This document shows positions 488-58,414 of a stretch of 64,000 nucleotides of DNA, in pieces. The stretch spans positions 70,360 to 134,359 of the forward strand of contig DYQY01000002.1 of NCBI GenBank assembly GCA_020719045.1, in the 5' to 3' direction. The position numbers and the translations under genes were made by a program. The notes beneath the pieces were generated by a model. It was not told the DNA's origin and ran no database searches. It worked only from the letters and a program-made list of their open reading frames with translations. The number at the start of each line of letters is the position of its first letter. The first letter of the stretch is position 1. Source of the DNA: Candidatus Termititenax sp. GTDB taxonomy: Bacteria; Margulisbacteria; Riflemargulisbacteria; GWF2-35-9; DYQY01.

Positions 488-516
488 TAAACAAATATAC
501 AAATAAACGCTATAAT
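488..516 (+). promoter_or_regulatory. Promoter of nitroreductase gene, leaderless geometry
   Basis: A -35-like TAAACA (488-493), 17-nt spacer and perfect -10 TATAAT (511-516) precede the ATG at 523 by only 6 nt. Transcription would begin at or beside the start codon, and no Shine-Dalgarno is visible. A short AAACTGAT direct repeat overlaps the -35 region. Confidence 0.65.
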
Positions 517-522
517 ACCCCT

Positions 523-1149
523 ATGAAAAATTTATCATCAGAAGAGTTTCAGCAAAATGAAACACTTGGCACAATAGACAAAAGACACAGTACTAGGTTC
601 TTTGCTAATAAAGAGGTAGACGATAAAGATATTATCCTTTTACTTAATGCTGCTAACAAAGCTCCTTCTGCACATAACCAACAATCATGGAAATTTATTG
701 TAATTAAAGACCAAAAGAAAAAAGACCTTGCTGCCCTTATTGCAAACAGAGCTACAGACTTTCCAAGAACTTCAGCAGTGCTACTTAGAATGGCATCAAG
801 AAGCATTTCTAGTGCACCTGTTGTAATAGCAGTAGCTAACACCGGTGAACTTATTGACCATGGACGTGATTTATTTCAAATAGATGAAGTAGACTCAGAC
901 TTATTTTTCCGAACAATGGAAATACAAAGCTCCTCTGCTGCAGTACAAAACTTACTACTTGCTGCTACTTCTATTGAATTAAGTACTGTTTGGTTAGGTG
1001 TTATGTATTTAATTAAAGATGAGGTTCTGGAACTATTAGAAGAACCTAAAGGCGAATTTATGGCTATTGTTCCTGTTGGTTATCCAGAAAAACCAGGCTC
1101 TAGTCCTAAAAAAAGACCAGTTGATTTAATTATTAAACAACTTAACTAA
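523..1149 (+). CDS. Nitroreductase family protein
   Basis: At 208 residues this matches the FMN-dependent nitroreductase family, which uses NAD(P)H to reduce nitroaromatics, quinones or flavins in the cytoplasm. Near residues 20-35 is RHSTRFFANKEV, the conserved flavin-phosphate-binding Arg/Ser segment. It is followed by the helix AANKAPSAHNQQSWKFIVI, the family hallmark (APSxxNxQxW). The C-terminal half (VQNLLLAATSIELSTVWLGV) fits the second conserved block. The start is fixed by a promoter ending 6 nt upstream. YaeQ follows after 13 nt and is probably cotranscribed. The substrate cannot be predicted. Confidence 0.88.
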   Translation: MKNLSSEEFQQNETLGTIDKRHSTRFFANKEVDDKDIILLLNAANKAPSAHNQQSWKFIVIKDQKKKDLAALIANRATDFPRTSAVLLRMASRSISSAPVVIAVANTGELIDHGRDLFQIDEVDSDLFFRTMEIQSSSAAVQNLLLAATSIELSTVWLGVMYLIKDEVLELLEEPKGEFMAIVPVGYPEKPGSSPKKRPVDLIIKQLN

Positions 1150-1162
1150 TAAGAATATATTT

Positions 1163-1702
1163 ATGGCACTTAATTCAACTATTTATAAAGTAATACTAGA
1201 AATCTCGGATATGGACAGGCATTACTATAAACAACACAAACTTACACTAGCAAAGCACCCTTCAGAAACTGATGAAAGACTGATGGTAAGAATACTTACC
1301 TTTGCTATGTTTGCAGATGATGAACTTAATTTTGGTAAAGATATTAATGCAGATGACGAACCAGCTCTGTATATTAATGATTTCACTGGTGCTAGTAAGC
1401 TTTGGATAGAACTTGGTCAACCTAGCGAAAGAATCATCCGAAAAGCCTGCAATAAATCAAATAAAGTTATTCTAATTATATATGGAAAAAGTCCAGAACT
1501 ATGGTGGAAAAACAATCAAAATGAATTTAAACTTAAAAACAATCTACAAGTAATACTTCTAAAAACAGAAGAAACCAGTAACCTAGCAACAATAGCAGAC
1601 AGAACAATGAATCTTACTTGTACAGTTGAAGACGGACAAATAACAGTTATAAATGAAACAAAATCAGTAGCAATCCAACCAGTTGAATTAAAAAAAGTCT
1701 AA
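1163..1702 (+). CDS. YaeQ family protein
   Basis: The 179-residue product matches the YaeQ family along its length: the N-terminal STIYKVILEISDMDRHYY, the central ETDERLMVRILTFAMFA and the SKLWIELGQPSERIIRKAC block are characteristic. YaeQ proteins have a PD-(D/E)xK-nuclease-like fold; their function is not established, though the E. coli relative was once reported as a suppressor of an RfaH defect. The gene lies 13 nt after the nitroreductase with no recognisable Shine-Dalgarno, so translation may be coupled. It converges on ndk with only 6 nt between stop codons and no visible terminator. Confidence 0.85.
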   Translation: MALNSTIYKVILEISDMDRHYYKQHKLTLAKHPSETDERLMVRILTFAMFADDELNFGKDINADDEPALYINDFTGASKLWIELGQPSERIIRKACNKSNKVILIIYGKSPELWWKNNQNEFKLKNNLQVILLKTEETSNLATIADRTMNLTCTVEDGQITVINETKSVAIQPVELKKV

Positions 1703-1708
1703 ATAACT

Positions 1709-2110
1709 TTATCCAAAGAATACTTTAAGTTCTCTTTGTGCACTTTCAATAGAGTCAGAAGAATGAACAACATTTCTATTGGTAGAAGTAGCATATCTTG
1801 CTCGTATTGTTCCAGGAGCAGCTACAAGTGGATTAGTTGCACCACACAACCTTCTTACATCTGCAATTGCATTCTCGCCAATTATCTCTATCGCATATAA
1901 CGGACCTGAAGTAATAAACTGCATTAAATCTTCAAAGAACGGTTTTCCATCATGCTCACCATAATGTTCATATGCTTTTTCAAAGGTTAATGTCATAAGT
2001 TTTAATTGTTTTATCTCTAACTCAGTATGACTTTCAAACATATCTAAAATATTCGCAACAACTCTACGTTTCACCGCATCAGGTTTAATCAGAACTAATG
2101 TTGTTTCCAT
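1709..2110 (-). CDS. ndk: Nucleoside diphosphate kinase
   Basis: Nucleoside diphosphate kinase transfers the gamma-phosphate of ATP to (d)NDPs through a phospho-histidine. The 133-residue chain has the family start (TLVLIKPDAV, residues 4-13), the nucleotide-binding segment GATNPLVAAPGTIR (about 90-103) and the active-site motif NVVHSSDS with catalytic His116. Length is slightly below the usual 140-150. The ATG directly follows the argH stop codon, making ndk the last gene of purA-argG-argH-ndk and presumably translationally coupled. Confidence 0.95.
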   Translation of the reverse strand: METTLVLIKPDAVKRRVVANILDMFESHTELEIKQLKLMTLTFEKAYEHYGEHDGKPFFEDLMQFITSGPLYAIEIIGENAIADVRRLCGATNPLVAAPGTIRARYATSTNRNVVHSSDSIESAQRELKVFFG

Positions 2111-3498
2111 TTATACCCCCTTATTCTCTGCCATATTAAGTCTTGCGTTATCAATCTGTGTTTCAATACTCTTCAAAGAAGTTCCGCCATAACTATCTCG
2201 TGAATCGACACTGCAAAAAACATTCAATTTACTCAAAATATCATCACAAAATAAATCAGAAAACTGTCTAAATTCATCATAAGATAATACTACTAAATCT
2301 TTATGACTATCCTCACAATATCTAACAATTTTACCAACCACTGAATGAGCTTCTCTAAAAGGCATACCTTTTAATACTAAATAGTCAGCAATATCAGTGG
2401 CAAGCAAATAACCTTTATTAATCTTATCAGATAGCAATTCACGATTAAACTCCAGTGTGTTTAAGCAACCTATATTTACCCTTAAAACCTGTTCTACCGT
2501 ATCAACGGCTTCAAAAAATAAATGCTTATCCTCTTGCAAATCTCTGTTATATCCCATAGGCAAAGACTTAAGAGTTGTAATCATTCCTATCAATGAACCA
2601 ACTACCCTACCAGTTTTTCCTCTAGTTAATTCATAAACATCAGGATTCTTTTTCTGTGGCATAATTGATGAGCCAGTTGTGTATGCATCACTTAATTTAA
2701 CAAAACCAAATTCTTCTGATGTCCAAATAATCATATCCTCACTTAATCTAGAAAAATGTAGCATGATTGAATTCAAACAATACAGAATATCCAAAACGTA
2801 GTCCCTATCTGCCACGCTATCAAGCGAATTGGCCGTAGGTTGCCTCATATTCAATTCTTCAGCGATTTTGAACCTATCTATCCCATAAGGACTGCCAGCA
2901 AGCGCTCCTGCCCCTAATGGCACTTCTCTTAAAAATTTCTTAAAAAACTTTAATTTCTCTAAATCTCTCAAAAACATTTCATGATAGGCAAGAAAATACA
3001 AACTAGCCCTAATTGGCTGCGCTTTCTGCAAATGCGTATACCCAGGCATGACAACATCTTTATTCTGCTCTGCTTTGTTAATCAACGAAACCAATAATTC
3101 CTTAAGTAACAGTATTACAGTATCTACTCTATTCAAAATAGTAAGTTTAAAAGCTGTAACAACCTGGTCATTACGACTTCTCCCAGTATGAATCTTCTTT
3201 CCCGTATCGCCAAGTTTATCTGTAAGATACTTCTCGATATTCATATGGATATCTTCCAACTTATCATCTGGAATAAAAGTTCCATTATCTCGCTCTTTTT
3301 GTAGCTGGTCTAAAACACCCTCTAAATTCTCAGCTTCTTCATGGGTAACAATCGCTTTGTCCCTTAATTGATGCAAATGAGCTTTGGTAGCTAATATATC
3401 TGCTTTAAATAAATGGATATCATCTTGCAGTGACGAAGTGAATTTCTCTACATCAAGGTTTGTTTCCTCAGAGAATCTTCCGCCCCAAATCTTTTCGC

Positions 3499-3502
<4 letters not shown>
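2111..3502 (-). CDS. argH: Argininosuccinate lyase
   Basis: ArgH cleaves argininosuccinate to arginine and fumarate, the last step of arginine synthesis, as a cytoplasmic homotetramer. The 463-residue protein is full length. Signature regions are HTGRSRNDQ (105-113), [10 protein letters not shown] (154-163, with the proton-transfer His) and the fumarate-lyase signature [12 protein letters not shown] (277-288). Its start overlaps the argG stop by 4 nt. The fumarate released can enter the fumarase and TCA-type genes encoded further along. Confidence 0.97.
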
Positions 3503-5951
<2,449 letters not shown>

Positions 5952-5981
5952 TTATTTATTTCTTCCAAATATTTTTATATA

Positions 5982-6149
5982 CCCCACCGTGCCGTGTGCT
6001 TACTTGTCTCTGAACCAGAACAATTCAGAGTGGGTCAGACCGAAGTCTGTTCTAAAACTGACTAAAATGAACCGCAATCCATTTCAAGTACAGCTCCCGT
6101 ATTTTTTATGTTGGCTCATCTCTCAATAAACATCACCAACACGGTCGGG
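5982..6149 (-). ncRNA. Structured RNA upstream of purA (6S RNA-like candidate)
   Basis: Read on the minus strand, the two ends of this 168-nt segment pair in an imperfect closing helix of about 20 pairs. CCC-ACCGUG at the 5' end pairs with CACGG-UGGGG at the 3' end, and inner pairing extends to UUAUU with AGUAA, interrupted by single-base bulges. Inside are an apical stem (AGCUG/CAGUU plus UGAAAUG/CAUUUUA), a UUCG tetraloop hairpin (CAGAC-UUCG-GUCUG) and a 7-bp hairpin (CUCUGAA/UUCAGAG). A long bulged closing stem with a hairpin on the 3' side of a central bubble recalls 6S RNA, at about the right length. It could instead be a cis-regulatory purA leader. No terminator separates it from purA. 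Confidence 0.5.
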
Positions 6150-6171
6150 CGAAATGCCAATTTATATAGCA

Positions 6172-6200
6172 ATCATAACATTTATTATACAGAATGTTAA
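6172..6200 (-). promoter_or_regulatory. Promoter for the structured RNA and purA operon
   Basis: On the minus strand TTAACA (6195-6200), a 17-nt spacer and TATGAT (6172-6177) form a good vegetative promoter. Predicted transcription starts about 15-20 nt before the closing helix of the RNA. This is the only convincing promoter in the intergenic region. Confidence 0.6.
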
Positions 6201-6232
6201 TTGTTTTATTACCTTCAAAATCTCTAAACTTA

Positions 6233-7327
6233 TTAATATGTTTTTCTTCTGTATAACCAGAAAAAAATTAGTATACAAAGGAAGAACAACAATGGGAACC
6301 AGGCAGCTAAAAATGGATTAAACAACCCACCTATACCCATAGCCCTTGTATATGCGGACAAGAAGAACAATAGTGCTATGCTTATTAAAGAACCAACAAT
6401 GCTAAAAATAATTCCCCACACATCTTTAGAGGACTTAACAAAAATTAAAACAAAAACAACACCAAGAAGTGCAAATACTAAATTAACCGCTGATGAGGAA
6501 AACTTAAAATAATACTCGACCATCATAGCTTTTGGATCTAATCCTGCTCTTTTAAGAGATACAATGTTTTCCCTTATCTGAAAAGAGCTCATCTCTTTTG
6601 GATTTCTTAACTTCATATAATTATTATCCATATCGTAACTAAGCTTAATCTTCATTTCATCAAACCCTGCTTCAAAACTCAAGAAACCATCAGCTTCAAA
6701 ATTATACGTTTTACCATCAATTAATTGCCAATAAGTATCTGTCCATATGGCCTTTTTAGCAGATATTACTTTTGGAGCGTTACCACCAACATCATAGATA
6801 AGGATGTCCTGCATATCGCTTCTATTCTTATTTACCTTCTTCACGTAAACATACTTGTCATCAGTATCCTTAAAGAAAACGTTCTCTTCTATCATTGGGA
6901 TACTTTCCTTCAAAATAAGTCTATGAATCATAGTATTTGACCTATAGTTTGTTACTGGAACTACATATTCACTTAATAAAAAAGATAAAGAAACGACCAT
7001 ACATGCAAAAACAAAGAAAGGAGCCAATACCCTTTCATAGATGATTCCTGATGTCCAATATATCTGGATTTCATTATCATTTATCATTCTAAACATAACT
7101 AACATTACAGAAAAAAGTGAAGCAATAGGCAAAAAAAGAACAATAATTGCTGGTATTTTGTATACAAGCAACTTAATGAGAACTAGTGGACTAATCCCTC
7201 TATTAACAACATATTCCATAAGGGAAAAAATAACATCGGCTATGCCGATTAAAACTAAAGCAAAAACCGCTACCAAAAAAGGAAGAAATAATTCCCTTAA
7301 AAAATAGCGGTCTATGATTTTAAACAT
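6233..7327 (-). CDS. LptF/LptG family permease (LPS transport)
   Basis: The 364-residue protein belongs to the YjgP/YjgQ family, the membrane subunits that with LptB extract lipopolysaccharide from the inner membrane towards LptC/A. It shows the typical plan: about three N-terminal membrane helices (residues 12-120, with the signature IIDRYFLRELFLPFLVA), a periplasmic beta-jellyroll-like middle (about 125-255) and three C-terminal helices ending LFFLCILIFFWLYRR. It follows rpsU by 4 nt. Its presence implies an LPS-like outer membrane. I cannot tell LptF from LptG; the partner is not in the window. Confidence 0.88.
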   Translation of the reverse strand: MFKIIDRYFLRELFLPFLVAVFALVLIGIADVIFSLMEYVVNRGISPLVLIKLLVYKIPAIIVLFLPIASLFSVMLVMFRMINDNEIQIYWTSGIIYERVLAPFFVFACMVVSLSFLLSEYVVPVTNYRSNTMIHRLILKESIPMIEENVFFKDTDDKYVYVKKVNKNRSDMQDILIYDVGGNAPKVISAKKAIWTDTYWQLIDGKTYNFEADGFLSFEAGFDEMKIKLSYDMDNNYMKLRNPKEMSSFQIRENIVSLKRAGLDPKAMMVEYYFKFSSSAVNLVFALLGVVFVLIFVKSSKDVWGIIFSIVGSLISIALLFFLSAYTRAMGIGGLFNPFLAAWFPLLFFLCILIFFWLYRRKTY

Positions 7328-7331
7328 TAAT

Positions 7332-7529
7332 CTACCAATTATCCTTCGCCTGTTGAGATTTATTCCTTCTAACAGCCGCCTTTTTGTTTCTTTTATTTAC
7401 AATAGAAGGTTTTTCATAAAATTCTCTACTTTTTACTTCGAGCAATATACCTTCTTCTTTAACTTTACGTTTAAATTTTCTAAGTACCTTTTCAATAGGT
7501 TCATCTGGGTTTCTTTTAAATTCTGCCAC
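7332..7529 (-). CDS. rpsU: 30S ribosomal protein S21
   Basis: S21 is a small basic protein of the 30S platform near the 16S rRNA 3' end. The core EPIEKVLRKFKRKVKEEGIL followed by REFYEKPS is diagnostic. I chose the GTG at 7529 (65 residues). An in-frame ATG 18 nt earlier lies within the sequence GGGAGGTG, which is better read as the Shine-Dalgarno (spaced 9-10 nt from the GTG) and would add a non-homologous N-terminus. Confidence 0.92.
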   Translation of the reverse strand: MAEFKRNPDEPIEKVLRKFKRKVKEEGILLEVKSREFYEKPSIVNKRNKKAAVRRNKSQQAKDNW

Positions 7530-7636
7530 GACTTCTTCACCTCCCATCCTAATCTTGTAACTAACAACTACACTCTAATTAAACTATATTTTCATCAAAA
7601 ACTCTACTTATGATTTTATAAATAAACAGTATTTTT

Positions 7637-7969
7637 TTATCCTGGAGGCCACTCAAACTGTCTCTTACCCATAACATGAAAATGAACATGATCAACTGTT
7701 TGCTGACCATATTTACCACAGTTATTTACTACCCTAAAACCTTCTTCAAGGTCATGCTCTTCAGCAATAATCTGAATAGCACTTGTTATTTCAACCATGA
7801 TTCCTGGATCAATTGTTAATATAGAAGTATAATGTTCCTTTGGAAGTACTAAACAATGAAATGGTGCTACAGGATTAATATCCATAACAGCAATAACATT
7901 GGTACTCTGGAAAATAATAGTTGAAGACATCTCTTTGTTTACTATCTTACAAAAAATACAATCACTCAT
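7637..7969 (-). CDS. HIT family protein, HinT-like
   Basis: This 110-residue histidine-triad protein probably hydrolyses nucleoside phosphoramidates or related purine nucleotides. It begins SDCIFCKIV, the HinT start with CxxC, and ends with the catalytic triad HVHFHVMG. The ATG at 7969 is preferred because GGGGAG sits 7 nt upstream; an upstream in-frame ATG adds five residues. Either start overlaps the end of ricT, so the two are coupled. Like many HinT proteins it ends soon after the triad (FEWPPG). Confidence 0.9.
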   Translation of the reverse strand: MSDCIFCKIVNKEMSSTIIFQSTNVIAVMDINPVAPFHCLVLPKEHYTSILTIDPGIMVEITSAIQIIAEEHDLEEGFRVVNNCGKYGQQTVDHVHFHVMGKRQFEWPPG

Positions 7970-8720: not shown

Positions 8721-8721
8721 G

Positions 8722-12521: not shown

Positions 12522-12522
12522 T

Positions 12523-12810: not shown

Positions 12811-12844
12811 ACAATACCTCCAAAATTAATTATAAATTAATACT

Positions 12845-13829: not shown

Positions 13830-13835
13830 GCGTGA

Positions 13836-13864
13836 TTGTCAAAAAAAAAAAATTGTTTTATAAT
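13836..13864 (+). promoter_or_regulatory. Promoter of GNAT gene with A-tract spacer, leaderless geometry
   Basis: TTGTCA (13836-13841), a 17-nt spacer and TATAAT (13859-13864) end 6 nt before the ATG at 13871. The spacer contains most of a 12-A homopolymer (13841-13852). Length change in that tract by slippage would alter -35/-10 spacing. Confidence 0.75.
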
Positions 13865-13870: not shown

Positions 13871-14338
13871 ATGGTCAATAAAAACATTGTAATAAAAAAA
13901 GCAAAAATAGCAGATGCAACTGCTATAAAATCAATACTAGACGAGTACGCTAATCAGCGAAAACTACTCGCCAGATCACTTCAATATATTATTGAAAATA
14001 TCAGAGAATTTCATCTTGCTACAATTGATAATGAAGTTATTGGAACTTGCGCCTTAAAAGTGTCTACAGTTGACCTAGCTGAAATCAAATCACTAGCAGT
14101 TAAAGAGGCTTACATGAAAGAAGGAATTGGCTCAAAACTCATAGAAGCTGTATTATCAGAAGGAAAAGACCTTGGCGTAAAGGAATTTTTCGCCTTAACA
14201 TATGTGCCTGATTTCTTCTACAAAAAAGGATTCATAATGATTCAAAAGGAAGACCTACCACACAAGATTTGGACAGAATGCGTCCATTGTCCATTCTTCC
14301 CAAACTGTAACGAAACTGCTGTTATCTTAAAAAACTAG
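13871..14338 (+). CDS. GNAT family N-acetyltransferase (ArgA/YhfO-like)
   Basis: The 155-residue protein is a single GNAT domain. Its acetyl-CoA motif is LAVKEAYMKEGIGSKLIEAVL (motif A, with Q/RxxGxG replaced by KEGIGS), preceded by EVIGTCALKV. The final segment FFYKKGFIMIQKEDLPHKIWTECVHCPFFPNC, with a Cys pair, resembles N-acetylglutamate synthase-type acetyltransferases, which would fit the arg genes nearby, but substrate is unproven. The ATG at 13871 is set by a promoter ending 6 nt upstream. The 3' end overlaps fliI by 4 nt in convergent orientation. Confidence 0.82.
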   Translation: MVNKNIVIKKAKIADATAIKSILDEYANQRKLLARSLQYIIENIREFHLATIDNEVIGTCALKVSTVDLAEIKSLAVKEAYMKEGIGSKLIEAVLSEGKDLGVKEFFALTYVPDFFYKKGFIMIQKEDLPHKIWTECVHCPFFPNCNETAVILKN

Positions 14339-24521: not shown

Positions 24522-25022
24522 TTATTTATAACTAACAACTACAGGAAACTTTTCTACCTCTAATCTATAAATAGCTTCTGGCCCTAACTCAGAAAAAGCA
24601 ACACATTCCATCTTCTTTATCCTATCCGCTAAATACGCACCAGCCCCACCAATTGTAGAGAAATAAATAGCATGATTCGCTCTAATGGAGTTCTTTACTT
24701 CCTCTGAACGTTTACCTTTACCAATCATTACCTTTAATCCTTTTTCCAAAAGAAGAGGCGTGAATTTATCCATCCTTGAACTAGTAGTTGGGCCAGCTGA
24801 CCCACAAACAACTCCAGCTCTTGCAGGAGTTGGTCCCATATAATAAATAGACGAAAGACTAAAGCCTAAAGATAAAAGATTTCCTTCTCTTTCAAGTATT
24901 TCTATAATCCTCTGATGAGTATTATCTCTAGCAGAATAAATTGTTCCTGACAAATAAACAAACTCACCTAAAGTTAAACTACTAATATCTTCATTTGTTA
25001 AAGGTAATTTTAATTCTTTCAT
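24522..25022 (-). CDS. Fumarate hydratase class I, beta subunit
   Basis: The 166-residue protein is the C-terminal (beta) half of two-subunit class I fumarase or tartrate dehydratase, interconverting fumarate and malate. It has LSGTIYSARDNTHQRI (residues 25-40), GPTPARAGVVCGSAGPTTSSRMD and the IGKG/GGAGAYLADRI blocks. It follows the alpha subunit by 3 nt. Split subunits are common in Clostridia, thermophiles and archaea. Fumarase is favoured over tartrate dehydratase because icd and argH are nearby. Confidence 0.9.
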   Translation of the reverse strand: MKELKLPLTNEDISSLTLGEFVYLSGTIYSARDNTHQRIIEILEREGNLLSLGFSLSSIYYMGPTPARAGVVCGSAGPTTSSRMDKFTPLLLEKGLKVMIGKGKRSEEVKNSIRANHAIYFSTIGGAGAYLADRIKKMECVAFSELGPEAIYRLEVEKFPVVVSYK

Positions 25023-29928: not shown

Positions 29929-30849
29929 TTATTTTATTATGATTAGTTTTAATCCCACAAGGATTCCTTCAATAATAAGCGCAGTTAATGGAACAACATC
30001 TTCGTGTATCTGACTTTTTTCTAATGCTTCGTAATATCTAATCTTCTTGTCTTGCTCAATAATAGACGGCGGGTAATTATTTATAAGAAGTATAGCTTGT
30101 AATAACAATCTACCTATTCTGCCATTACCATCACCAAAAGGATGAATTTGTTCAAACCTACTATGGATCTTTGCGCAATGATTAAAGAAACTATCTGTTA
30201 AACTATTGATATCAACAATTAACTCATCCATTAATGTGGGAACTTTCATATAATTAGCAGTAACTGTTCTAGACCCAACTATCCTTACCGGATGATTACG
30301 ATACAAACCTGCATCCTCTAAAATGCCATTCATCAATATCGAATGTAGTTTCAAAATAAACTTTTCATCTATCCTAAAATTTCCTTCTGCTATTTGTTTT
30401 AACAAAAAATTCCAAGCAGTTTGATGATTCTTTGCTTCTAATTGCTCTAGTAAACTTTTGTTGACTGTTTGATTTTCAAACAAAATAGCTTGTGTTTCTC
30501 TCATTGTAAGAGTGCTACCTTCTATTTTATCAGTGTGATAGGTAAGAGATAAAACTAATGACTCTCTAATATCTTTAAACTTATTAATAAGTTCTAGAAA
30601 GTTACTATTTTTTCTTGCTTCTTCAATCAAATCTAACCTAGCATCATTAATCGATACTGCAGGGGCTTTGCCTATGGTCTTTGTGTATTCATTTAGTATC
30701 TGGTTCTGTTTCGACTTACGTGGAACAGACTTTCCATTTAACCAACTGTTCATTGATGGGAAGCTAACACCAAACTTATCAGCAAGTTGCTGTTGTGTTA
30801 AGTCGAGATATTCTTGTAATAAGTTAAGTTGTTGTAAATAATCCATCAT
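29929..30849 (-). CDS. Fic family protein with N-terminal HTH domain
   Basis: Fic enzymes usually transfer AMP from ATP to target hydroxyls. The 306-residue protein has an N-terminal helix-turn-helix (residues 13-45, LDLTQQQLADKFGVSFPSMN SWLNG), an inhibitory helix with the TxxxEG motif at T106-G111, and the catalytic HPFGDGNGRIGR (236-247), intact. The inhibitory motif before the core marks a class II Fic, with self-restraint. A flap-like segment (VGSRTVTANYMKVP) precedes the core. Two palindromes in its promoter suggest autoregulation by the HTH domain. No separate antitoxin gene is adjacent. Confidence 0.93.
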   Translation of the reverse strand: MMDYLQQLNLLQEYLDLTQQQLADKFGVSFPSMNSWLNGKSVPRKSKQNQILNEYTKTIGKAPAVSINDARLDLIEEARKNSNFLELINKFKDIRESLVLSLTYHTDKIEGSTLTMRETQAILFENQTVNKSLLEQLEAKNHQTAWNFLLKQIAEGNFRIDEKFILKLHSILMNGILEDAGLYRNHPVRIVGSRTVTANYMKVPTLMDELIVDINSLTDSFFNHCAKIHSRFEQIHPFGDGNGRIGRLLLQAILLINNYPPSIIEQDKKIRYYEALEKSQIHEDVVPLTALIIEGILVGLKLIIIK

Positions 30850-30855: not shown

Positions 30856-30903
30856 ATGATAGCAAACTTTATAAAGAATTGAAATATTTAAAACTTTATA
30901 AAG
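30856..30903 (-). promoter_or_regulatory. fic promoter and tandem palindromic operators
   Basis: Two copies of the 10-bp palindrome CTTTATAAAG (30867-30876 and 30894-30903; 27 bp centre to centre) lie upstream of fic. The nearer copy occupies the spacer before an extended -10 TGCTATCAT (hexamer 30856-30861), which ends 6 nt before the ATG at 30849. Binding of the HTH domain there would block polymerase; that is inferred. Confidence 0.6.
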
Positions 30904-31226: not shown

Positions 31227-32204
31227 CTAAACTAAACCTTCTGTTTCATCAAAACCAAACATTACGTTCATGTTCTGAATAGCTTGGCCAGAAGCACCTT
31301 TAGTAAGGTTATCAATAACACTCACCATTATAAAATTACCTTCTTTTGTTCCTTTATATAATTTAAATACACATTTATTAGTCCAAGCAACATCAGATAC
31401 TTTTGGGTCGCCATCTTTTAAAAAGTTCACAAATGTTTCACCCTTATAAAAGTTTTCTAAAATAGACTGCAACTCTTCTAGTGAACTCTTAGACTTAAAA
31501 TAAATAGTAGAAAGAATCCCACGATCTATTGGCAATAAATGAGGAGTAAATTCAATCTTCGCATCCAAGTAAGTTTCCATCTCTATCTGATGACGATGAC
31601 TACTGATTCCATATGCTTTAAAATCTGCTAATTCTATAAAAGCCTTCATCTGCTCTTCAACTTTAACGCCTGCACCAGATACGCCACTGGAAGAGTCTGA
31701 AATAATATCTGACACTTTATCCTTAATAGGAATCATAGGAAGTAAAACAGATGTTACATAGCAACCAGGGTTACCGATTAGATTCGCTTTTGCTACTTCT
31801 TTACGATATACCTCTGTAAGGCCATACACTGCTTCACTACATAGCTCTGGTGAAGTATGTTTAGGATACTTCTTTTCATATACTACTGGGTCAGCAAAAC
31901 GGAAATCAGCACTAAGGTCTACAACCTTAATATTATTAGCTAATAACTCTTTAGCAAACTGCATTGATGTTCCATGTGGAGTTGCTAAAAATACCAAATC
32001 AATCTTAAGCGATTTCATCTTCTCTATAGAATATTCTTCTAAAACCAAATCACTATCAAGCGTAGGATATAAGCTCTTTATAGCTATACCAGCTTGACTA
32101 GTAGAGGTGATGCAAATAACTTTTGCCTGCTTGTGTTTATTAAGCAGTCTAATAAGCTCTGAACCCGTGTAACCTGTTGCTCCAACAATTGCTATATTTT
32201 TCAT
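31227..32204 (-). CDS. argC: N-acetyl-gamma-glutamyl-phosphate reductase
   Basis: ArgC reduces N-acetylglutamyl phosphate to the semialdehyde in arginine synthesis, complementing argG and argH. The 325-residue enzyme starts MKNIAIVGATGYTGSELIRLL with the NADP-binding glycine loop, has the catalytic-Cys motif GNPGCYVTS and the HRHQIEME block. The ATG at 32204 is used although the frame stays open 67 codons further; that extension is translated from palindromic repeats and has no homology character. A TATACT element ends 8 nt upstream and no Shine-Dalgarno is seen. Confidence 0.95.
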   Translation of the reverse strand: MKNIAIVGATGYTGSELIRLLNKHKQAKVICITSTSQAGIAIKSLYPTLDSDLVLEEYSIEKMKSLKIDLVFLATPHGTSMQFAKELLANNIKVVDLSADFRFADPVVYEKKYPKHTSPELCSEAVYGLTEVYRKEVAKANLIGNPGCYVTSVLLPMIPIKDKVSDIISDSSSGVSGAGVKVEEQMKAFIELADFKAYGISSHRHQIEMETYLDAKIEFTPHLLPIDRGILSTIYFKSKSSLEELQSILENFYKGETFVNFLKDGDPKVSDVAWTNKCVFKLYKGTKEGNFIMVSVIDNLTKGASGQAIQNMNVMFGFDETEGLV

Positions 32205-32212: not shown

Positions 32213-32242
32213 AGTATATCACAACCCTACTCCCCCTGTCAC
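32213..32242 (-). promoter_or_regulatory. Promoter of argC overlapping a palindromic repeat
   Basis: Minus-strand GTGACA (32237-32242), 18-nt spacer, TATACT (32213-32218), 8 nt before the ATG. The -35 hexamer is one arm of the GTCAC/GTGAC hairpin in the repeat at 32229-32271, so the repeat may have supplied a promoter element. Confidence 0.45.
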
Positions 32243-32724: not shown

Positions 32725-32753
32725 TTGACTTATCTCTTGTACATTTGTACAAT
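32725..32753 (+). promoter_or_regulatory. lexA promoter with overlapping SOS box
   Basis: TTGACT (32725-32730), 17-nt spacer, TACAAT (32748-32753), then 6 nt and the lexA ATG. Embedded at 32737-32752 is the inverted repeat TTGTACA-TT-TGTACAA, a likely LexA operator covering the spacer and -10. Its core GTAC-N4-GTAC fits the LexA box described for Cyanobacteria (RGTACNNNDGTWCB) better than the E. coli CTGT-N8-ACAG; the flanking bases differ from that consensus. Confidence 0.75.
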
Positions 32754-32759: not shown

Positions 32760-33338
32760 ATGGATATCAAAAAAGACCTAGAAAAAATAAGAGACTTCTT
32801 CAAAAAGCACGATAGGTTACCTAGCCTCGGCGAAATAGCTGACCTCTTCAGCTACTCTTCCCGAAACTCAGCAGTCTATTTAGTAAACAAATTAATTGAA
32901 AACAATATTATTGAAAAAGACCCCTCGACCGGCAAGCTACTCACAACCCCCATCTTCCATAATAGAGTTAAACTATTAGGATCTGTAGCTGCCGGTTTTC
33001 CAATTGCCGAAGAAGAAGAGCTACAAGGGACAATCTCGCTAGAGGAGTATTTAATAGATAAACCAACCTCTACTTTTATGTTAGAAGTAAAAGGCGATTC
33101 CATGATAGACGCAGGTATACTACCAAAAGACATGGTACTAGTAGAAAAAGGTCGTTTAGCTAAAAGCGGCGATATTGTAATAGCCGAAGTCGACGGAGAA
33201 TGGACAATGAAGTACCTCCGTAAAACTAACGGTAAAACTTACCTACAAGCCGCTAACTCAAAATATCCAGACATCTACCCAGAAAAAACAATGAACATTG
33301 CTGGCGTTGTTATAAGTACTTGTCGTAAATATGGATAA
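32760..33338 (+). CDS. lexA: SOS repressor LexA
   Basis: LexA represses DNA-damage genes until RecA filaments stimulate self-cleavage. The 192-residue protein has an N-terminal winged-helix (LPSLGEIADLFSYSSRNSAVYLVNKLIENNIIEKD), the cleavage site Ala78-Gly79 in SVAAGFPI, nucleophile Ser114 in GDSMIDAGI and base Lys151 in TMKYL. All cleavage residues are intact. The ATG at 32760 fits the homology and the promoter that ends 6 nt upstream; an earlier in-frame ATG lies before the promoter. dinB overlaps its 3' end by 8 nt. Confidence 0.95.
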   Translation: MDIKKDLEKIRDFFKKHDRLPSLGEIADLFSYSSRNSAVYLVNKLIENNIIEKDPSTGKLLTTPIFHNRVKLLGSVAAGFPIAEEEELQGTISLEEYLIDKPTSTFMLEVKGDSMIDAGILPKDMVLVEKGRLAKSGDIVIAEVDGEWTMKYLRKTNGKTYLQAANSKYPDIYPEKTMNIAGVVISTCRKYG

Positions 33339-46119: not shown

Positions 46120-46141
46120 TATCAATTACCTCCTAAGATAA

Positions 46142-47113: not shown

Positions 47114-47127
47114 TTTACCCCTCCTAA

Positions 47128-47877: not shown

Positions 47878-47893
47878 TTTAAATCTCCCTTTC

Positions 47894-49861: not shown

Positions 49862-49882
49862 GAATACCTCGTATTTTTTTGG

Positions 49883-49955
49883 TGCACCGTGAAGGATTCG
49901 AACCTTCGACCCTCTGATTAAGAGTCAGATGCTCTACCAACTGAGCTAACGGTGC
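49883..49955 (-). tRNA. tRNA-Lys (CTT)
   Basis: A full cloverleaf: acceptor GCACCGT/ACGGTGC, D-arm AGCTCAGTTGGTAGAGC, anticodon stem TCTGA/TCAGA with loop CTCTTAA (anticodon CTT), T-arm GGTTCGAATCC. Discriminator A and CCA are encoded (to 49880). Only 18 nt separate the CCA from the start of the pyrophosphatase homologue. Confidence 0.97.
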
Positions 49956-50025
49956 ATTAATTTTTTGCATCATCAGTATACCAGAAACTAATACCTTGAA
50001 CAATAAATAAGTATGCAAAGAATGG

Positions 50026-50099
50026 CGCGCTCGAAGAGACTTGAACTCCCGACACACGGATTCGAAGTCCGTTGCTCTATCCAGCTGAGCTACGAGCGC
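50026..50099 (-). tRNA. tRNA-Arg (TCG)
   Basis: Acceptor GCGCTCG/CGAGCGC, anticodon stem ACGGA/TCCGT with loop CTTCGAA (anticodon TCG, codon CGA), T-arm AGTTCAAGTCT. Discriminator G and encoded CCA follow (50023-50025). It lies 70 nt upstream of tRNA-Lys and is probably cotranscribed. Confidence 0.96.
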
Positions 50100-50132
50100 G
50101 TTTATATCATATTAAAGTATATCTTTTTATGG

Positions 50133-52651: not shown

Positions 52652-52674
52652 TACCTAATTATCATACCAAAAGT

Positions 52675-53580
52675 ATGCAACTTTCTACAGCACCTTTCGA
52701 TATATTAACCATGTACAATAAAATAATCTCTTGTAATTCCCCATCTGTAAGCAAACTTGACTCTGGCAAGCTTTGGAAGTTTCAGTCAAAACACAAAGCA
52801 TTAGATTTGCTTCCACTACATCAATTAATACTACTACTTGGGCATTTTATACACCTAATCTCAATAGAGGTACATTTATTAATACACGAACACCAAAGCA
52901 CTCTAGAGCATTTTCTTAATAAAGTAATTGAGAGTACCTTTGATAAATATATTCAGTCCAAAATATCTGAGCGACTTATTACTAACTTAAAAATTAATCA
53001 TGACATGATTAAACAAGAAATAATTAAAAGCATAGGCAATCAAAGTAATACTGAAAAAATTAAATTATATAAAGCATGCAAAAAGCAGGACGTTAATGCT
53101 TTATTAGAAAATATTCGAAACAACAAAACAGAAGAAAAATTATTACCCATGTATTATCTATTTCTAATTACATTGTCAATCAAAGATGACAAAAAATTAA
53201 TTAATATGTCAGAAATATTAATTAATTTATCTTCTTGTGAGGAATTTCAAACTAATCCTTGTTTAAAAGGTTTGTTAATCCTCTGCTTAATCCAACAAAA
53301 CTTCAGCATTTCCGATGCTGAAATAATTCTTAAGAACTTAAAAGTATCAGGCGCTGGAGCCCATTTTATGCTTTTTCATTATCTAGAATTATCATTGAAA
53401 CACGATAATTATAATCAAGCACTAAACTTTGCTAACACATTAAAAAATAGAAATTTCCAAAAGAATGAATTGGATATCTTGATGAATATGCCTTACTTAA
53501 AGCAACACAACATTACAAATTTAAATGAGTTAATCAGTTTATTAGAAGAAAAAATCAAAGAAGCGATTCCGCAACCTTAA
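52675..53580 (+). CDS. Unknown alpha-helical protein
   Basis: I do not recognise this 301-residue protein. It is Leu/Ile/Lys/Asn-rich and almost wholly helical. A central part (about 140-270) suggests degenerate TPR-like pairs (MLFHYLELSLKHDNYNQALNFANTLKNRNFQ). No signal peptide is seen. There is no Shine-Dalgarno; a weak TATCAT lies 9 nt before the ATG. Its start is 23 bp from the divergent TMTC-like gene and its 3' end overlaps the flavoprotein gene by 26 nt in convergent orientation. Confidence 0.65.
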   Translation: MQLSTAPFDILTMYNKIISCNSPSVSKLDSGKLWKFQSKHKALDLLPLHQLILLLGHFIHLISIEVHLLIHEHQSTLEHFLNKVIESTFDKYIQSKISERLITNLKINHDMIKQEIIKSIGNQSNTEKIKLYKACKKQDVNALLENIRNNKTEEKLLPMYYLFLITLSIKDDKKLINMSEILINLSSCEEFQTNPCLKGLLILCLIQQNFSISDAEIILKNLKVSGAGAHFMLFHYLELSLKHDNYNQALNFANTLKNRNFQKNELDILMNMPYLKQHNITNLNELISLLEEKIKEAIPQP

Positions 53581-55078
53581 TCCCATCTACAGCGCTAGAA
53601 ATAATTCCACCACTGTGACCACTGCCTTCTCCTATAACATATAGGTTATCAAAACCAAAACAACGCAAACTATCATCACGCAAGACTTGAATAGGTGATG
53701 ATGTCTTACTTTCAAGCCCCATAATTTGCCCTTCTTCAAAACCTTTCATTTTACGACTAAAATCAACTAAACCAGACCTCATAGCCTCGCTTAACTTACT
53801 AGGAAACATTTCCCATAATACTGTAGGCTCAAGCCCTAATGGATAACTAGTAGCCGTTAAAGGCAACGATTCTTTTTCCTTTATAAAATCAAAAATACTA
53901 CAAGCTGGTATTTTGTAACTATTCGTTTTCTTAAAAAATGATTGTTCTAATTGATCTATCCAATCCAAAGACTCTAGTGGACTAACTTCTTTTTGTAATA
54001 AATCCTTTAAATCAACAGCTACCACACAAGCAGAATTTGCGAACTGTCCACTCCTGCTAAAATAACTCATTCCATTAACAACACTACTACCTGCAACTGA
54101 TGTTGAGGGGACTATTATCCCTCCAGGACACATACAAAAAGAATACACAGACAAACTATCAGAAGAATTATACGTTAGTCTGTACTCTGCAGAACTAACA
54201 CTAGGAAGCGTTTCTCTGCCCCACTGAGCTTTATTTATTAAGGACTGAGGATGCTCAACTCTAGAACCGATTGCAAAATTTTTGTTATTAAACTTTACCC
54301 CACGATTAATAAGCATCCTATAAGTAGAATAAGAAGAATGTCCTGGTGCAACAAAATAATAATCAGCAACTATGACACCTTTGCTTGTCTTAGCCTCAAC
54401 AACTTTACCATTCTTAACAACAATATCTTCCAGTGCTGTCTCGAACTCAATCTTTCCACCTATTTCCTGAAACCTTTCTCTAAGTTTTTTGACAAGTGTA
54501 ATAAGGTTATCACTACCTAAATGTGGATGAGATAAATAAGCGATTTCTTCTGGCGCACCTGCCTCAATATAGCTATCTAAAACAAATTGTTTTTCCTGAG
54601 AAGCATGCTTACTTCTAGCAGTTAATTTGCCATCTGAAAATGTTCCTGCGCCACCCTCACCAGTAGCATAGTTTGCTAAAACATCAAACTGACCTGTGGA
54701 TTCAAAATTTTTAATTGCACTAGCTCTAGCGATTACCTCTTTGCCTTGTTCAATTATAGTTGTCTGAAACCCTGCTTTTTGTAAAACATAAGCAGAGAAA
54801 AAACCAGCTGGACCACTCCCAACAACTAAAACTTTTTGTGATCTTTTCTTATAAGGAATATTTAGTTTAGCTGGTTTTGGTGAAAATCCTTTAATTGATT
54901 TAGCAAACACCTCAACATTAATCTGCCAATGTATATTTCCTTTGTTTCTAGCATCTAAACTTTTTGTTTCAATATTATAAATAAACTCAGACAACCGAAT
55001 TTTCTTTGCTATCTTTGTGCGCAAATCTTCATCTGTATAGTCAGTCGGTAAATTAAAACTAAGTTTTTGGTATCCCAT
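53555..55078 (-). CDS. FAD-dependent dehydrogenase (COG2509 type)
   Basis: The 507-residue flavoprotein has an N-terminal ferredoxin-like region, the dinucleotide motif VLVVGSGPAGFFSAYVLQKAG (about 89-108), and the ATGEGGAGTFSDGKLTAR block characteristic of the uncharacterised FAD-dependent dehydrogenases of COG2509. A middle VEHPQSLINKAQWG and C-terminal YVIGEGSGHSGGIISSAVDGIKVAE complete the family pattern. Substrate unknown. It directly follows the RNA methyltransferase gene (2-nt gap). Confidence 0.88.
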   Translation of the reverse strand: MGYQKLSFNLPTDYTDEDLRTKIAKKIRLSEFIYNIETKSLDARNKGNIHWQINVEVFAKSIKGFSPKPAKLNIPYKKRSQKVLVVGSGPAGFFSAYVLQKAGFQTTIIEQGKEVIARASAIKNFESTGQFDVLANYATGEGGAGTFSDGKLTARSKHASQEKQFVLDSYIEAGAPEEIAYLSHPHLGSDNLITLVKKLRERFQEIGGKIEFETALEDIVVKNGKVVEAKTSKGVIVADYYFVAPGHSSYSTYRMLINRGVKFNNKNFAIGSRVEHPQSLINKAQWGRETLPSVSSAEYRLTYNSSDSLSVYSFCMCPGGIIVPSTSVAGSSVVNGMSYFSRSGQFANSACVVAVDLKDLLQKEVSPLESLDWIDQLEQSFFKKTNSYKIPACSIFDFIKEKESLPLTATSYPLGLEPTVLWEMFPSKLSEAMRSGLVDFSRKMKGFEEGQIMGLESKTSSPIQVLRDDSLRCFGFDNLYVIGEGSGHSGGIISSAVDGIKVAESLL

Positions 55079-55080
55079 AC

Positions 55081-55848
55081 TTAGCTCACCAACTCGTACA
55101 GAATTATTCCTGCAGCAACAGCAACATTTAATGATTCCATCTCGGATGACATTTTAATATTAATAAATTTGTCTGTTATTTTTTCAATTTCTGCACTCAC
55201 GCCATGTGACTCACTACCAAGAACTAAACAAAAATGTTTTGCTTGTTTCATGGACTTTAAATTCTCACCTTGTTTCACATTAGTTGAAATAGTTGGCATT
55301 TTCTCTTTAATCTTCTTTATTAAATCTAAACTCTTATTATCTTCTTCTATGTTCAGTTTAAATATAGCATCCTTGCTTGAATTCACTGTCTTAGGATTAT
55401 ACAAATCAACACAACGACTATCTACCACAACATTCCTTAATCCAAAAGCAATTGCAGTTCTAAGTATTGTCCCTAAGTTCCCTGGATCACTTACTCCATT
55501 CAAATATAAAACAGAACTCGTCATGTCTATCTTAGATGAAACCTTCTTATAAACCGCACAAATCCCAGAAGGAGTATCAAGCACTGAAAAAGCTTTATTA
55601 ATCTTCTCATCTATCACAAAATAGTTAGTCAAAAGCTTAGTAATTGCAATGACTTTATCATTATTCTTACTTAAAAGTTCCTTAGTTATATATACTGTCT
55701 CTGGCTTAATCCCTTGAGCTAATGCATCATGGATAGTTACCAAATTCTCAACCAAAAACTTTCCAAACTTATCTCTATATTTCTTTTGAGACAATCTACT
55801 TAAAAAATTAATTTTCTCATTAGACTTACTGGTTATAATATTTTGCAT
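55081..55848 (-). CDS. SpoU/TrmH-family RNA 2'-O-methyltransferase
   Basis: The 255-residue SPOUT enzyme has an N-terminal substrate-binding domain (KYRDKFGKFLVEN, as in 23S rRNA Gm2251/TrmH-like proteins) and the three knot motifs: VSDPGNLGTILRTA, LVLGSESHGVS and IKMSSEMESLNVAVAAGIILYEL. It probably methylates rRNA or tRNA. The ATG at 55848 is used: the frame is open further but would run into tRNA-His. An extended -10 (TGCTATACT) ends 6 nt before this ATG. Confidence 0.9.
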   Translation of the reverse strand: MQNIITSKSNEKINFLSRLSQKKYRDKFGKFLVENLVTIHDALAQGIKPETVYITKELLSKNNDKVIAITKLLTNYFVIDEKINKAFSVLDTPSGICAVYKKVSSKIDMTSSVLYLNGVSDPGNLGTILRTAIAFGLRNVVVDSRCVDLYNPKTVNSSKDAIFKLNIEEDNKSLDLIKKIKEKMPTISTNVKQGENLKSMKQAKHFCLVLGSESHGVSAEIEKITDKFINIKMSSEMESLNVAVAAGIILYELVS

Positions 55849-55854
55849 AGGGAT

Positions 55855-55863
55855 AGTATAGCA
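55855..55863 (-). promoter_or_regulatory. Extended -10 promoter of the SPOUT gene, leaderless geometry
   Basis: TGCTATACT (hexamer 55855-55860) lies between the 3' end of tRNA-His and the ATG at 55848, leaving 6 nt. The -35 position falls in the tRNA and is not consensus, so the TG extension may substitute. Confidence 0.55.
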
Positions 55864-55872
55864 CAAATCTGG

Positions 55873-55946
55873 GGTGACTGATGGGGTTTGAACCCACGAC
55901 AACCGGAACCACAATCCGGGGCTCTACCAACTGAGCTACAGCCACC
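55873..55946 (-). tRNA. tRNA-His (GTG)
   Basis: Acceptor GTGGCTG/CAGTCAC with encoded G-1 (55946) opposite discriminator C73, anticodon stem CCGGA/TCCGG and loop TTGTGGT (anticodon GTG), T-arm GGGTTCAAACCC, encoded CCA (55870-55872). The G-1:C73 pair is the His identity element. Confidence 0.97.
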
Positions 55947-55962
55947 ATAATAAAAAAATTGG

Positions 55963-56036
55963 CGCGCCCGAGACGATTCGAACGTCTGGCCTACGGCTTA
56001 GAAGGCCGTTGCTCTATCCAGCTGAGCTACGGGCGC
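55963..56036 (-). tRNA. tRNA-Arg (TCT)
   Basis: Acceptor GCGCCCG/CGGGCGC, anticodon stem ACGGC/GCCGT and loop CTTCTAA (anticodon TCT, codon AGA), discriminator G and encoded CCA. It lies 16 nt from tRNA-His in a three-tRNA cluster. Confidence 0.96.
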
Positions 56037-56079
56037 TCTTGAAACTAATAACTAAAAAAAGACCTGAATCTTTTAGTGG

Positions 56080-56152
56080 AGCGGGAGACCAGTCTCGAAC
56101 TGGCGACCCCCAGCTTGGAAGGCTAGTGCTCTACCAACTGAGCTACTCCCGC
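56080..56152 (-). tRNA. tRNA-Gly (TCC)
   Basis: Acceptor GCGGGAG/CTCCCGC, anticodon stem CTAGC/GCTGG (one wobble) with loop CTTCCAA (anticodon TCC), T-arm AGTTCGAGACT, encoded CCA. It is first of the Gly-Arg-His cluster on this strand. Confidence 0.96.
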
Positions 56153-56224
56153 ACACACACCTGTTGTTTTCACAACCGGCACAATATTATAACATGTCTA
56201 CCAGATTTGAAAATACTCAAATCA

Positions 56225-57577
56225 CTATACTTTTGGTAGCTTCAATAGTGCTTTCTTAATCTCATCTTCAGGGTACTCAAAATCCTCAAGCTTATTCTCG
56301 AAATACTTCTGATATGAAGTCATATCAAAATGACCATGACCTGAACAATTAAATAAAATAGTTCTTTCTTTACCTTCTTCTTTAGCTTTTAGGGCTTCTT
56401 CGATAGCACCTTTAACTGCATGAGCTGTCTCTGGGGCTACAATATGACCTTCTGTTTTTGCAAAAAGAATAGCAGCATCAAACACTGGTTTCTGATGATA
56501 AGCAACTGCTTCTACTAAATTTTCTTGAACTAATTTTGATACTATTGGAGCCATTCCATGATATCTTAATCCTCCAGCATGAATAGATGCAGGAACAAAA
56601 TCATGCCCCAATGTATGCATCTTTACTACTGGTGCCATCTTTGCAGTATCTCCATAATCATATGCATAAATACCTTTTGTAAGTGTAGGACAGGCTGTTG
56701 GCTCTACGGCAACTAATCGCACATTCTTTGAACCATGAATTTTATCATAAGCAAATGGAGTAGCTATTCCGCCAAAATTAGAACCACCACCAACACAACC
56801 AATAACTACATCCGGATAATCTCCAACTTTCTTAAACTGTTCCTTACACTCTAAACCAATGACAGATTGATGTAACAATACATGATTAAGTACTGAACCT
56901 AACGCATAGTTTGTATCTTTATTCTTAAGCGCAACCTCTACTGCCTCACTTATTGCAATCCCTAATGAACCAGGACAATTAGGGTCTTCTTTTAATATAT
57001 TTCTACCAGAATCTGTTGTATTTGAAGGAGATGAAATACATTTACCGCCCCAAGTCTCCATCATAAGCCTTCTTGAAGGCTTCATGTCATAACTACACTT
57101 AACCATATACACCAATACTTCTATTCCAAACATACTTCCAGCTAAGCTAAGAGAACTACCCCACTGACCTGCGCCTGTCTCAGTTGATAATTTATTGATA
57201 CCTTCTTTTTTATTATAATAAGCTTGAGCAATAGCAGTATTTGGTTTATGCGAGCCTGCTGGTGATACACCCTCCCATTTATAATAAATCTTGGCTGGTG
57301 TTCCTAATGCTTGCTCCAACCCATAAGCCCTATACATTGGTGACGGTCTCCAAATAGATAATTTATCCATAACTTCTGAAGGAATATCAATCCATCTTTG
57401 TGATGACATCTCCTGCTCAATTAGTGCCATAGGAAATATTGCAGACAATAAATCTGGTGTAGCAGGCTCTAATGTTACTGGATGTAATGGTGGGTCTATT
57501 GGACTACTTAAATCAGCTAAAATATTGTACCATTGCTTTGGCATTTCTTTTTCAGTAAGTGTAATTTTTCTTTCCAT
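56225..57577 (-). CDS. Tryptophan synthase beta chain, TrpB2 type
   Basis: The 450-residue PLP enzyme joins indole and serine to tryptophan. It matches the TrpB2 subgroup (long N-terminus with MPKQWYNILADL, LYRAxxLE-like MYRAYGLEQALG), with PLP lysine in SPAGSHKPNTA and TETGAGQWGSSLS. TrpB2 enzymes often work without TrpA; no trpA or other trp gene is here. The ATG at 57577 is preferred, with GGAG 6-7 nt upstream, over a TTG two codons earlier. Confidence 0.95.
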   Translation of the reverse strand: MERKITLTEKEMPKQWYNILADLSSPIDPPLHPVTLEPATPDLLSAIFPMALIEQEMSSQRWIDIPSEVMDKLSIWRPSPMYRAYGLEQALGTPAKIYYKWEGVSPAGSHKPNTAIAQAYYNKKEGINKLSTETGAGQWGSSLSLAGSMFGIEVLVYMVKCSYDMKPSRRLMMETWGGKCISSPSNTTDSGRNILKEDPNCPGSLGIAISEAVEVALKNKDTNYALGSVLNHVLLHQSVIGLECKEQFKKVGDYPDVVIGCVGGGSNFGGIATPFAYDKIHGSKNVRLVAVEPTACPTLTKGIYAYDYGDTAKMAPVVKMHTLGHDFVPASIHAGGLRYHGMAPIVSKLVQENLVEAVAYHQKPVFDAAILFAKTEGHIVAPETAHAVKGAIEEALKAKEEGKERTILFNCSGHGHFDMTSYQKYFENKLEDFEYPEDEIKKALLKLPKV

Positions 57578-57730
57578 GCTCAACTCCTAAAATATTATGA
57601 TATTATTATGTTACTGTAGACAGTATCGTTTGTCTAGAAAGCCCAAAACAATTCTCATCAATAATTTTATAAATCGACAACTTGCCAATCTAACTGTTTA
57701 TAGCTACAATATCCTTTGCATTTTAAAAGT

Positions 57731-57805
57731 CGGGGTATAGCGCAGTCCGGTTAGCGCACTTGTTTTGGGAACAAGGGGCCGCAAGTTCGAATCTTGCTAC
57801 CCCGA
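57731..57805 (+). tRNA. tRNA-Pro (TGG)
   Basis: Acceptor CGGGGTA/TACCCCG, D-arm AGCGCAGTCCGGTTAGCGC, anticodon stem CTTGT/ACAAG with loop TTTGGGA (anticodon TGG), T-arm AAGTTCGAATCTT, discriminator A and encoded CCA (57806-57808). The C1:G72 start is usual for bacterial tRNA-Pro. The 147-bp gap before it, after the trpB start, shows no other feature I can identify. Confidence 0.97.
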
Positions 57806-57822
57806 CCATTTTAAAAGATGCA

Positions 57823-57831
57823 TGTTATACT
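57823..57831 (+). promoter_or_regulatory. Extended -10 promoter, leaderless geometry
   Basis: TGTTATACT (hexamer 57826-57831) ends 7 nt before the ATG at 57839, just downstream of tRNA-Pro. There is no -35 match and no Shine-Dalgarno, as at the SPOUT gene beside tRNA-His. Confidence 0.5.
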
Positions 57832-57838
57832 TACCTAT

Positions 57839-58414
57839 ATGGAAAAAAATCAAATTACTATAGCTCCCGTTAACAATACTCCAATAGATTTTATTGCACA
57901 TAGCAAAATGCTATTACCAGAAATAGCCACACTTCTACCTACTGATATTTATCACACCAAAACAATCGCAACGATAATTGGAATGATTGCGGAAAACAAT
58001 AAACATAATGAAAACAACAAAATAAGCATCATAATTGAAAAGGATGATACCAATCTAAAAATAACCGCAAATGACGAAGGACCAGGATTTAGCGCACCAA
58101 TATTAACCTGTATAAAGGAAAGCTTCACAACCTACACCAAAAGCGCCGGACAAGGGCTATTTTCGCTTCTACTTATTACTATTTCCTGCAATGGAACTAT
58201 TATTATTGAAAGCAAAAAGATGAAAGAAAAATACTCCTTTCAAAAGGCTATTCAAAACAACACACAACAAATAATGATTGATGATGTTATTTCAGCCATC
58301 AAGGCAAATTATGAAAATAAAGAATACGGATTAATAACTAAGATTATAATACCTCTTAACAGTCTAAATAAACAAACAGCTCATCTAAACCTTGACTCAT
58401 ATATTAACTGGTAA
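57839..58414 (+). CDS. GHKL-type ATP-binding protein (RsbW/histidine kinase-like fold)
   Basis: The 191-residue protein looks like a lone HATPase domain. It has an N-box-like MIAENNKH, the G1 box NDEGPGFS and a G2-like AGQGLFSLLLI, but no His-phosphotransfer region or membrane segment. Such stand-alone domains often act as anti-sigma or switch kinases. The C-terminal 60 residues are not assignable. The ATG at 57839 is supported by a -10 element 7 nt upstream; an upstream ATG in frame would overlap the promoter. It converges on the chemotaxis receptor gene. Confidence 0.7.
   Translation: MEKNQITIAPVNNTPIDFIAHSKMLLPEIATLLPTDIYHTKTIATIIGMIAENNKHNENNKISIIIEKDDTNLKITANDEGPGFSAPILTCIKESFTTYTKSAGQGLFSLLLITISCNGTIIIESKKMKEKYSFQKAIQNNTQQIMIDDVISAIKANYENKEYGLITKIIIPLNSLNKQTAHLNLDSYINW

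Follow-up and report, generated by a model that had tools for sequence, protein, structure and literature searches.

Seven genes in a 64,000-nt stretch of bacterial DNA (hereafter, the window) carry a -10-like hexamer no more than 8 nt before the predicted start codon, which raises the question of whether their mRNAs begin at the start codon itself. The preliminary description of the window had proposed that they do, and the seven upstream sequences it gave all match the letters of the window, spacers included. In five cases the hexamer lies exactly 6 nt before an ATG: TATAAT ahead of a nitroreductase gene (511..516, + strand; ATG at 523), TATAAT ahead of a GNAT gene (13859..13864, +; ATG at 13871), TATCAT ahead of fic (30856..30861, -; ATG at 30849), TACAAT ahead of lexA (32748..32753, +; ATG at 32760) and TATACT ahead of a SpoU/TrmH-type (SPOUT) methyltransferase gene (55855..55860, -; ATG at 55848). 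The remaining two are TATACT boxes located 7 nt before a GHKL-like gene (57826..57831, +; ATG at 57839) and 8 nt before argC (32213..32218, -; ATG at 32204). The -35 boxes claimed at a 17-nt spacer are present for both GNAT (TTGTCA, 13836..13841, +) and lexA (TTGACT, 32725..32730, +). Pfam confirmed the nitroreductase, GNAT, Fic, LexA-type S24 peptidase, SpoU methylase and ArgC-type semialdehyde dehydrogenase assignments, while that of GHKL fell under the cut-off; the argC start at 32204 is supported by the fact that the Pfam NAD-binding domain begins at residue 70 of the long ORF. Inspection revealed no Shine-Dalgarno sequence upstream of the seven genes, an absence to be expected in part, because the -10 box fills that space. 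The -10 boxes of the methyltransferase (55848-56152) and of the GHKL-like gene (57731-57839) fall within the 21-30 nt past tRNA genes.

TANNNT-like hexamers are found everywhere in a genome of 34% GC, and five matches at 6 nt could have been picked by eye from that background; across 682 genes, TANNNT alone is met ~26 times at each position. The distribution of hexamer distances was determined in 864 kb, made up of the window and a further 800 kb from the same genome, G000 (1.75 Mb, 34% GC, 99% complete), of which this is about half. The 682 genes in this sample were assigned the first in-frame ATG predicted by a simple ORF caller, and hexamers were considered TATAAT-like if they showed at most one mismatch to TATAAT with TA...T kept. 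A TATAAT-like hexamer was present exactly 6 nt before the ATG in 55 genes, against 7.45 expected (Poisson P ~5 × 10⁻²⁹); within the window, the figure was five of the 62 scored genes (0.7 expected). Perfect TATAAT boxes occurred 31 times at 6 nt, 11 times at 7 nt and seven times at 8 nt, compared with ~1.5 times at any other position, and ATG was the most over-represented of all 64 triplets at offset 6 after TATAAT (46 versus 22). Second in-frame ATGs, used as decoys, gave 10 hexamers at 6 nt versus 5.8 expected, and third ATGs likewise gave no comparable peak; GTG and TTG starts in the sampled genes showed no leaderless signal. When E. coli K-12 was used as a control, none of 171 genes had a one-mismatch hexamer at 6 nt. 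In Deinococcus MP1, the positive control, TANNNT was found three times at 6 nt versus 0.58 expected, which is in the expected direction but involves small numbers. Whole-genome counts of TATAAT-N6-ATG, compared with reversed or 13-nt-spaced patterns, were also made across the phylum and varied by lineage; the gene-based histograms were preferred because matches in coding sequence blur such counts. An excess that is sharp, confined to 6 nt, specific to ATG, and missing both at decoy ATGs and in E. coli leaves the chance reading with a practically negligible probability, and it was ruled out. The preliminary description had named the lack of a peak near 6 nt as what would overturn it; the distribution does show that peak.

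Most of the 6-nt sites belong to divergently placed and well-separated genes. Expressed as a share of genes, the excess over chance was 16.5% (12.0-21.0%) for first-of-unit genes and 4.2% for internal ones. In about one transcription unit out of six, RNA synthesis seems to begin right at the start codon, leaving no leader for ribosome binding.

The 55 sites were then aligned. Similarity to a -35 box peaked only at a spacer of 17 nt, the spacing seen at GNAT and lexA; 20 of the 55 sites had at least 4/6 matches at this spacer, against 0-3 at spacers outside 16-18 nt. The alignment also showed TT at -35/-34, T (0.51) at -15 with G (0.49) at -14, forming a TGn extension, and T (0.56) at -1, a pattern of the sigma-70 type in which the ATG supplies the purine of a pyrimidine-purine start. 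Given the -35 box at 17 nt, the TGn extension and the T at -1, the sites look like sigma-70 promoters that start at the A of the AUG. RNA polymerase would bind the (often weak) -35 box, the TGn extension and the TATAAT-like -10, and transcription would start 7 nt past the hexamer. With a spacer of 6 nt this position is the A of the AUG; spacers of 7-9 nt would put it 1-3 nt before the AUG. The -10 box is therefore placed for a predicted transcription start within 3 nt of the start codon, the position that defines a leaderless gene. The mRNA would have no ribosome-binding site, and ribosomes would presumably load on the 5'-terminal AUG.

To follow these sites beyond one genome, the comparison set included a congener (G001, sampled over ~820 kb), five genomes of the order, one more of the class and many of the phylum, the samples from the other genomes being smaller. 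The spike was also present in the congener, with 30 sites at 6 nt versus 3.7 expected. Among 16 6-nt sites with orthologs in G000 and G001, 11 were at exactly 6 nt in both and 15 agreed within 3 nt, while the sequence just upstream was 60% identical; for comparison sites located at 10-60 nt, the exact distance was kept in 14-45% of cases. The geometry between -10 and ATG thus persists while the flanks diverge. Within the window, lexA has the 6-nt spacing in G001 too and the GHKL-like gene keeps its 7 nt; the fic ortholog has TATAAT at 8 nt, the argC ortholog has its box at 7 nt, and the methyltransferase ortholog shows TATAAT-N6-ATG in an unrelated flank. Order- and class-level relatives showed a weak spike (12 at 6 nt versus 3 expected), and other families of the phylum showed excesses at 6-9 nt. 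G009, G011 and G014 likewise had the peak, with additional sites at 8-9 nt in G011 and G014. In the higher-GC relatives G011 and G014 (L156-L171), the -10 lay at 6, 8 or 9 nt, rarely 7, before the ATG, although the numbers are small.

Three other readings of the geometry were considered. The A/T-rich hexamer might serve translation rather than be a -10 box, for instance as an S1 or unstructured binding site within a longer leader; an A/T-rich bias near -10 has indeed been ascribed to S1 in other phyla (PMC5397173). A translation site, however, has no need of a TTGACA located exactly 17 nt upstream, of a TGn extension or of the phase-locked repeats described below, and this reading is very improbable. 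The promoters might also be genuine and the actual start codons be located further downstream, giving transcripts with ordinary leaders, which is conceivable in that the start codons used here are predictions. Against this, codons 2-11 after these ATGs evolve like the coding sequence of other genes: in 17 ortholog pairs, substitution frequencies at the three codon positions were 0.19/0.08/0.37, a coding pattern, while the 30 nt upstream of the ATGs showed 0.36/0.43/0.37 and no such pattern. The coding-type substitution from codon 2 onwards indicates, indirectly, that translation probably begins at the predicted ATG, and downstream starts have a slim chance at most of being the explanation. Finally, the methyltransferase (55848) and GHKL-like (57839) genes might owe short-leader mRNAs to the 3'-end processing of a tRNA and not to promoters of their own, since tRNA-His ends at 55870 and tRNA-Pro at 57808, 21 and 30 nt before these genes. 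Yet the G001 orthologs keep their -10 boxes at 6 and 7 nt, and the 60 nt upstream of them contain no tRNA-like 3' end; as the tRNA is upstream of the methyltransferase in G000 but not in G001, its processing does not explain the geometry there. This reading is unlikely, and both ORFs, close as they are behind tRNAs, appear to have their own promoter. Taken as a whole, the best explanation is that all seven are promoters of the sigma-70 type serving leaderless genes (probability roughly 0.92). The preliminary description had suggested leaderless promoters, and the 6-nt spike, the -35, TGn and T(-1) signals, the congener and the constraint from codon 2 all back that suggestion.

The preliminary description had also inferred two classes of translation initiation. 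This much held: a Shine-Dalgarno class (GGAG/GAGG/AGGA) with a strong peak at 5-9 nt was found beside the leaderless one, which makes two classes likely; about one-sixth of first-of-unit genes would be leaderless, and many others would be translated via Shine-Dalgarno leaders. The proposed division of labour between them did not hold. The idea that leaderless genes belong mainly to shorter or regulated units was dropped, since no significant difference in unit length was seen (means of 2.2 and 3.0 genes, P = 0.52). Nor do Shine-Dalgarno leaders mark out the housekeeping genes as a whole, many of these being found in the leaderless set: both glycyl-tRNA synthetase subunits, a class-I W/Y tRNA synthetase, mnmG, tsaD, dus (dihydrouridine synthase), hisB (imidazoleglycerol-phosphate dehydratase), carB, NAD synthase, a RelA/SpoT gene and flhA (FHIPEP).

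In the window's genus, a subset of the predicted promoters has tandem repeats with a unit of 7 or 8 bp, which enter the -10 in a fixed phase. In the window, an 8-bp degenerate tandem repeat of the AAACTGAT / AAACAAAT type (467..510, +) runs into the nitroreductase -10; it represents, with one mismatch, a genus-specific octad cassette, RAACNNNTRAACNNTATAATN6ATG. Such repeats preceded 13 of 63 leaderless first genes in G000 compared with three of 212 other first genes (Fisher P = 5 × 10⁻⁷). In G001 they preceded 7/55 and 3/249, respectively (P = 3 × 10⁻⁴), which is the cleaner test because the cutoffs were set after seeing examples that came mostly from G000. The 7-bp form is locked to a period of 7 and to the phase of the -10 (CTTTATAAT), with seven sites in G000 versus 0-1 in each other phase, and seven versus 0-2 in G001. 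With up to one mismatch, CTTTNNNCTTTNNNCTTTATAAT was found 13 times in G000 and 14 times in G001, while its reversed pattern, used as a control, gave 0; each of the phylum's other 72 genomes had 0-2 copies. For the 8-bp form with N6-ATG, the counts in G000 and G001 were six and 10, with one match in those 72 genomes. Orthologs retain the repeats but with different units, and in one pair a 7-bp unit is replaced by an 8-bp one. Glycyl-tRNA synthetase is encoded by two unlinked subunit genes (L131:3551-4417 and L130:9268-11289), both predicted to be leaderless and preceded by a repeat tract, which is of the 8-bp type in one and of the 7-bp type in the other. A repeat-like tract at 24838-24880 was discarded as a coincidence, lying inside the fumarase C-terminal gene.

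The repeats stop at the -10, at least ~12 nt before the ATG, and do not overlap a ribosome-binding site; as they lie upstream of the inferred transcript, they could only act at the DNA level. It is possible, and we propose it tentatively, that the genus has a distinct promoter architecture: degenerate tandem repeats of 7 or 8 bp, held in phase with the -10, would take the place of the -35 box at leaderless housekeeping genes and drive their expression. The units would turn over, or even switch type, between species, with no change in the phase or in the distance from -10 to AUG. This would be explained by a dedicated factor that reads the repeats, or by RNA polymerase treating them as an array of -35/UP-like contacts.

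Among named genomes, those of Candidatus Margulisbacteria and Marinamargulisbacteria have the LexA most similar to that of the window. At lexA, a putative LexA operator, TTGTACATTTGTACAA (32737..32752, +), overlaps the -10 and is the sole exact copy in the genome. A search of the genome with this operator returned the lexA copy plus three one-mismatch sites; no SOS regulon was defined, since the exact operator occurs once, at lexA, and the regulon may comprise very few genes or rely on a less strict site. In lexA genes of other phyla, palindromes occupy the same promoter position, between -35 and -10 or overlapping the -10. Within the Marinamargulisbacteria, in another family (L010, L012), the palindrome AGTACAATCGTACT covers the -10 and extends as far as the ATG. 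Across 79 lexA loci from other genomes, the -10 was exactly 6 nt from the 5'-most ATG in 28 and at 5-9 nt from an in-frame start in 42, 36 of which had a -35 with at least 5/6 matches at 17-18 nt. The 42 include 23/24 Nitrospirota, 5/6 Omnitrophota and some Patescibacteria, Riflebacteria, Deferribacteres and Margulisbacteria; being the closest matches to one query and not phylogenetically independent, these figures count loci, not gains. When the same rule was applied to the same loci, lexA had the box at 6 nt in 22 of 70 cases versus four of 215 for other genes. Two Nitrospirota genomes differed in their overall counts: in G074 (L064), whose lexA has a near-leaderless layout, TATAATN6ATG occurred 39 times versus 37 for the reversed pattern, i.e. 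no overall excess, and in G080 it occurred 48 times versus 12. The recurrence of the leaderless-type lexA layout across phyla suggests a testable link between SOS control and leaderless expression.

Leaderless initiation has been proposed as an ancestral mode. With Margulisbacteria usually being assigned a place close to Cyanobacteria, the presence of a clear leaderless class in the former helps to place gains and losses. For many cyanobacterial genomes, Zheng et al. 2011 (PMC3160421) report that neither Shine-Dalgarno-led nor leaderless genes are apparent. Leaderless genes are in themselves of a known kind: the same paper reports them with TANNNT ~12 nt upstream, and PMC12340547 reports a -10 motif adjacent to the ORF in Deinococcus-Thermus. 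As far as these texts go, those systems share with the present one the distance of the -10-like hexamer, the Shine-Dalgarno class beside it and the restriction to a minority of genes. The present system differs in belonging to low-GC Margulisbacteria, which are not among the groups named there, in its near-consensus TATAAT with a -35 at 17 nt, and in its genus-specific subset on phased tandem repeats. No report of leaderless genes in Margulisbacteria was found in a non-exhaustive search, and the phylum may be covered by the bacteria-wide scan of PMC12340547. In practice, start codons in uncultured genomes of this kind should be predictable from the -10 box.

TAACTGA heptamers in direct repeats upstream of start codons are known from Beggiatoaceae, Cyanobacteria and Bacteroidetes, and a post-transcriptional role has been proposed for them (PMC4679880). 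Forward-oriented tandem heptamers upstream of start codons also occur in the window's genus, and the two systems have in common short repeats just before start codons, mostly with no Shine-Dalgarno sequence. The units here are nevertheless CTTTNNN (7 bp) or RAACNNNT (8 bp), not TAACTGA, and they vary (AGCTTTT, ATCTTTT, CACTTTT, AAACAAAT, TTGAACGA). Moreover, repeats of the TAACTGA type would be expected to end within several nt of the start codon and overlap the ribosome-binding site, whereas those of the genus end at the -10, outside the inferred transcript. This bears on how heptamers before start codons work, since in the window's genus they would be part of the promoter and not of the mRNA. 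The literature searched, which was not exhaustive, contained no matching account of such phased-repeat promoters, nor of the leaderless lexA layout across phyla. The lexA of Mycobacterium tuberculosis has been shown by experiment to be leaderless (PMC2897130), being translated from its transcription start site, as predicted here for the window's lexA; as an ortholog-type gene of the present set, it counts in favour of the leaderless reading. It differs from the latter in that the putative operator of the window's lexA overlaps the -10, a layout that appears to recur in Nitrospirota, Omnitrophota, Patescibacteria and others.
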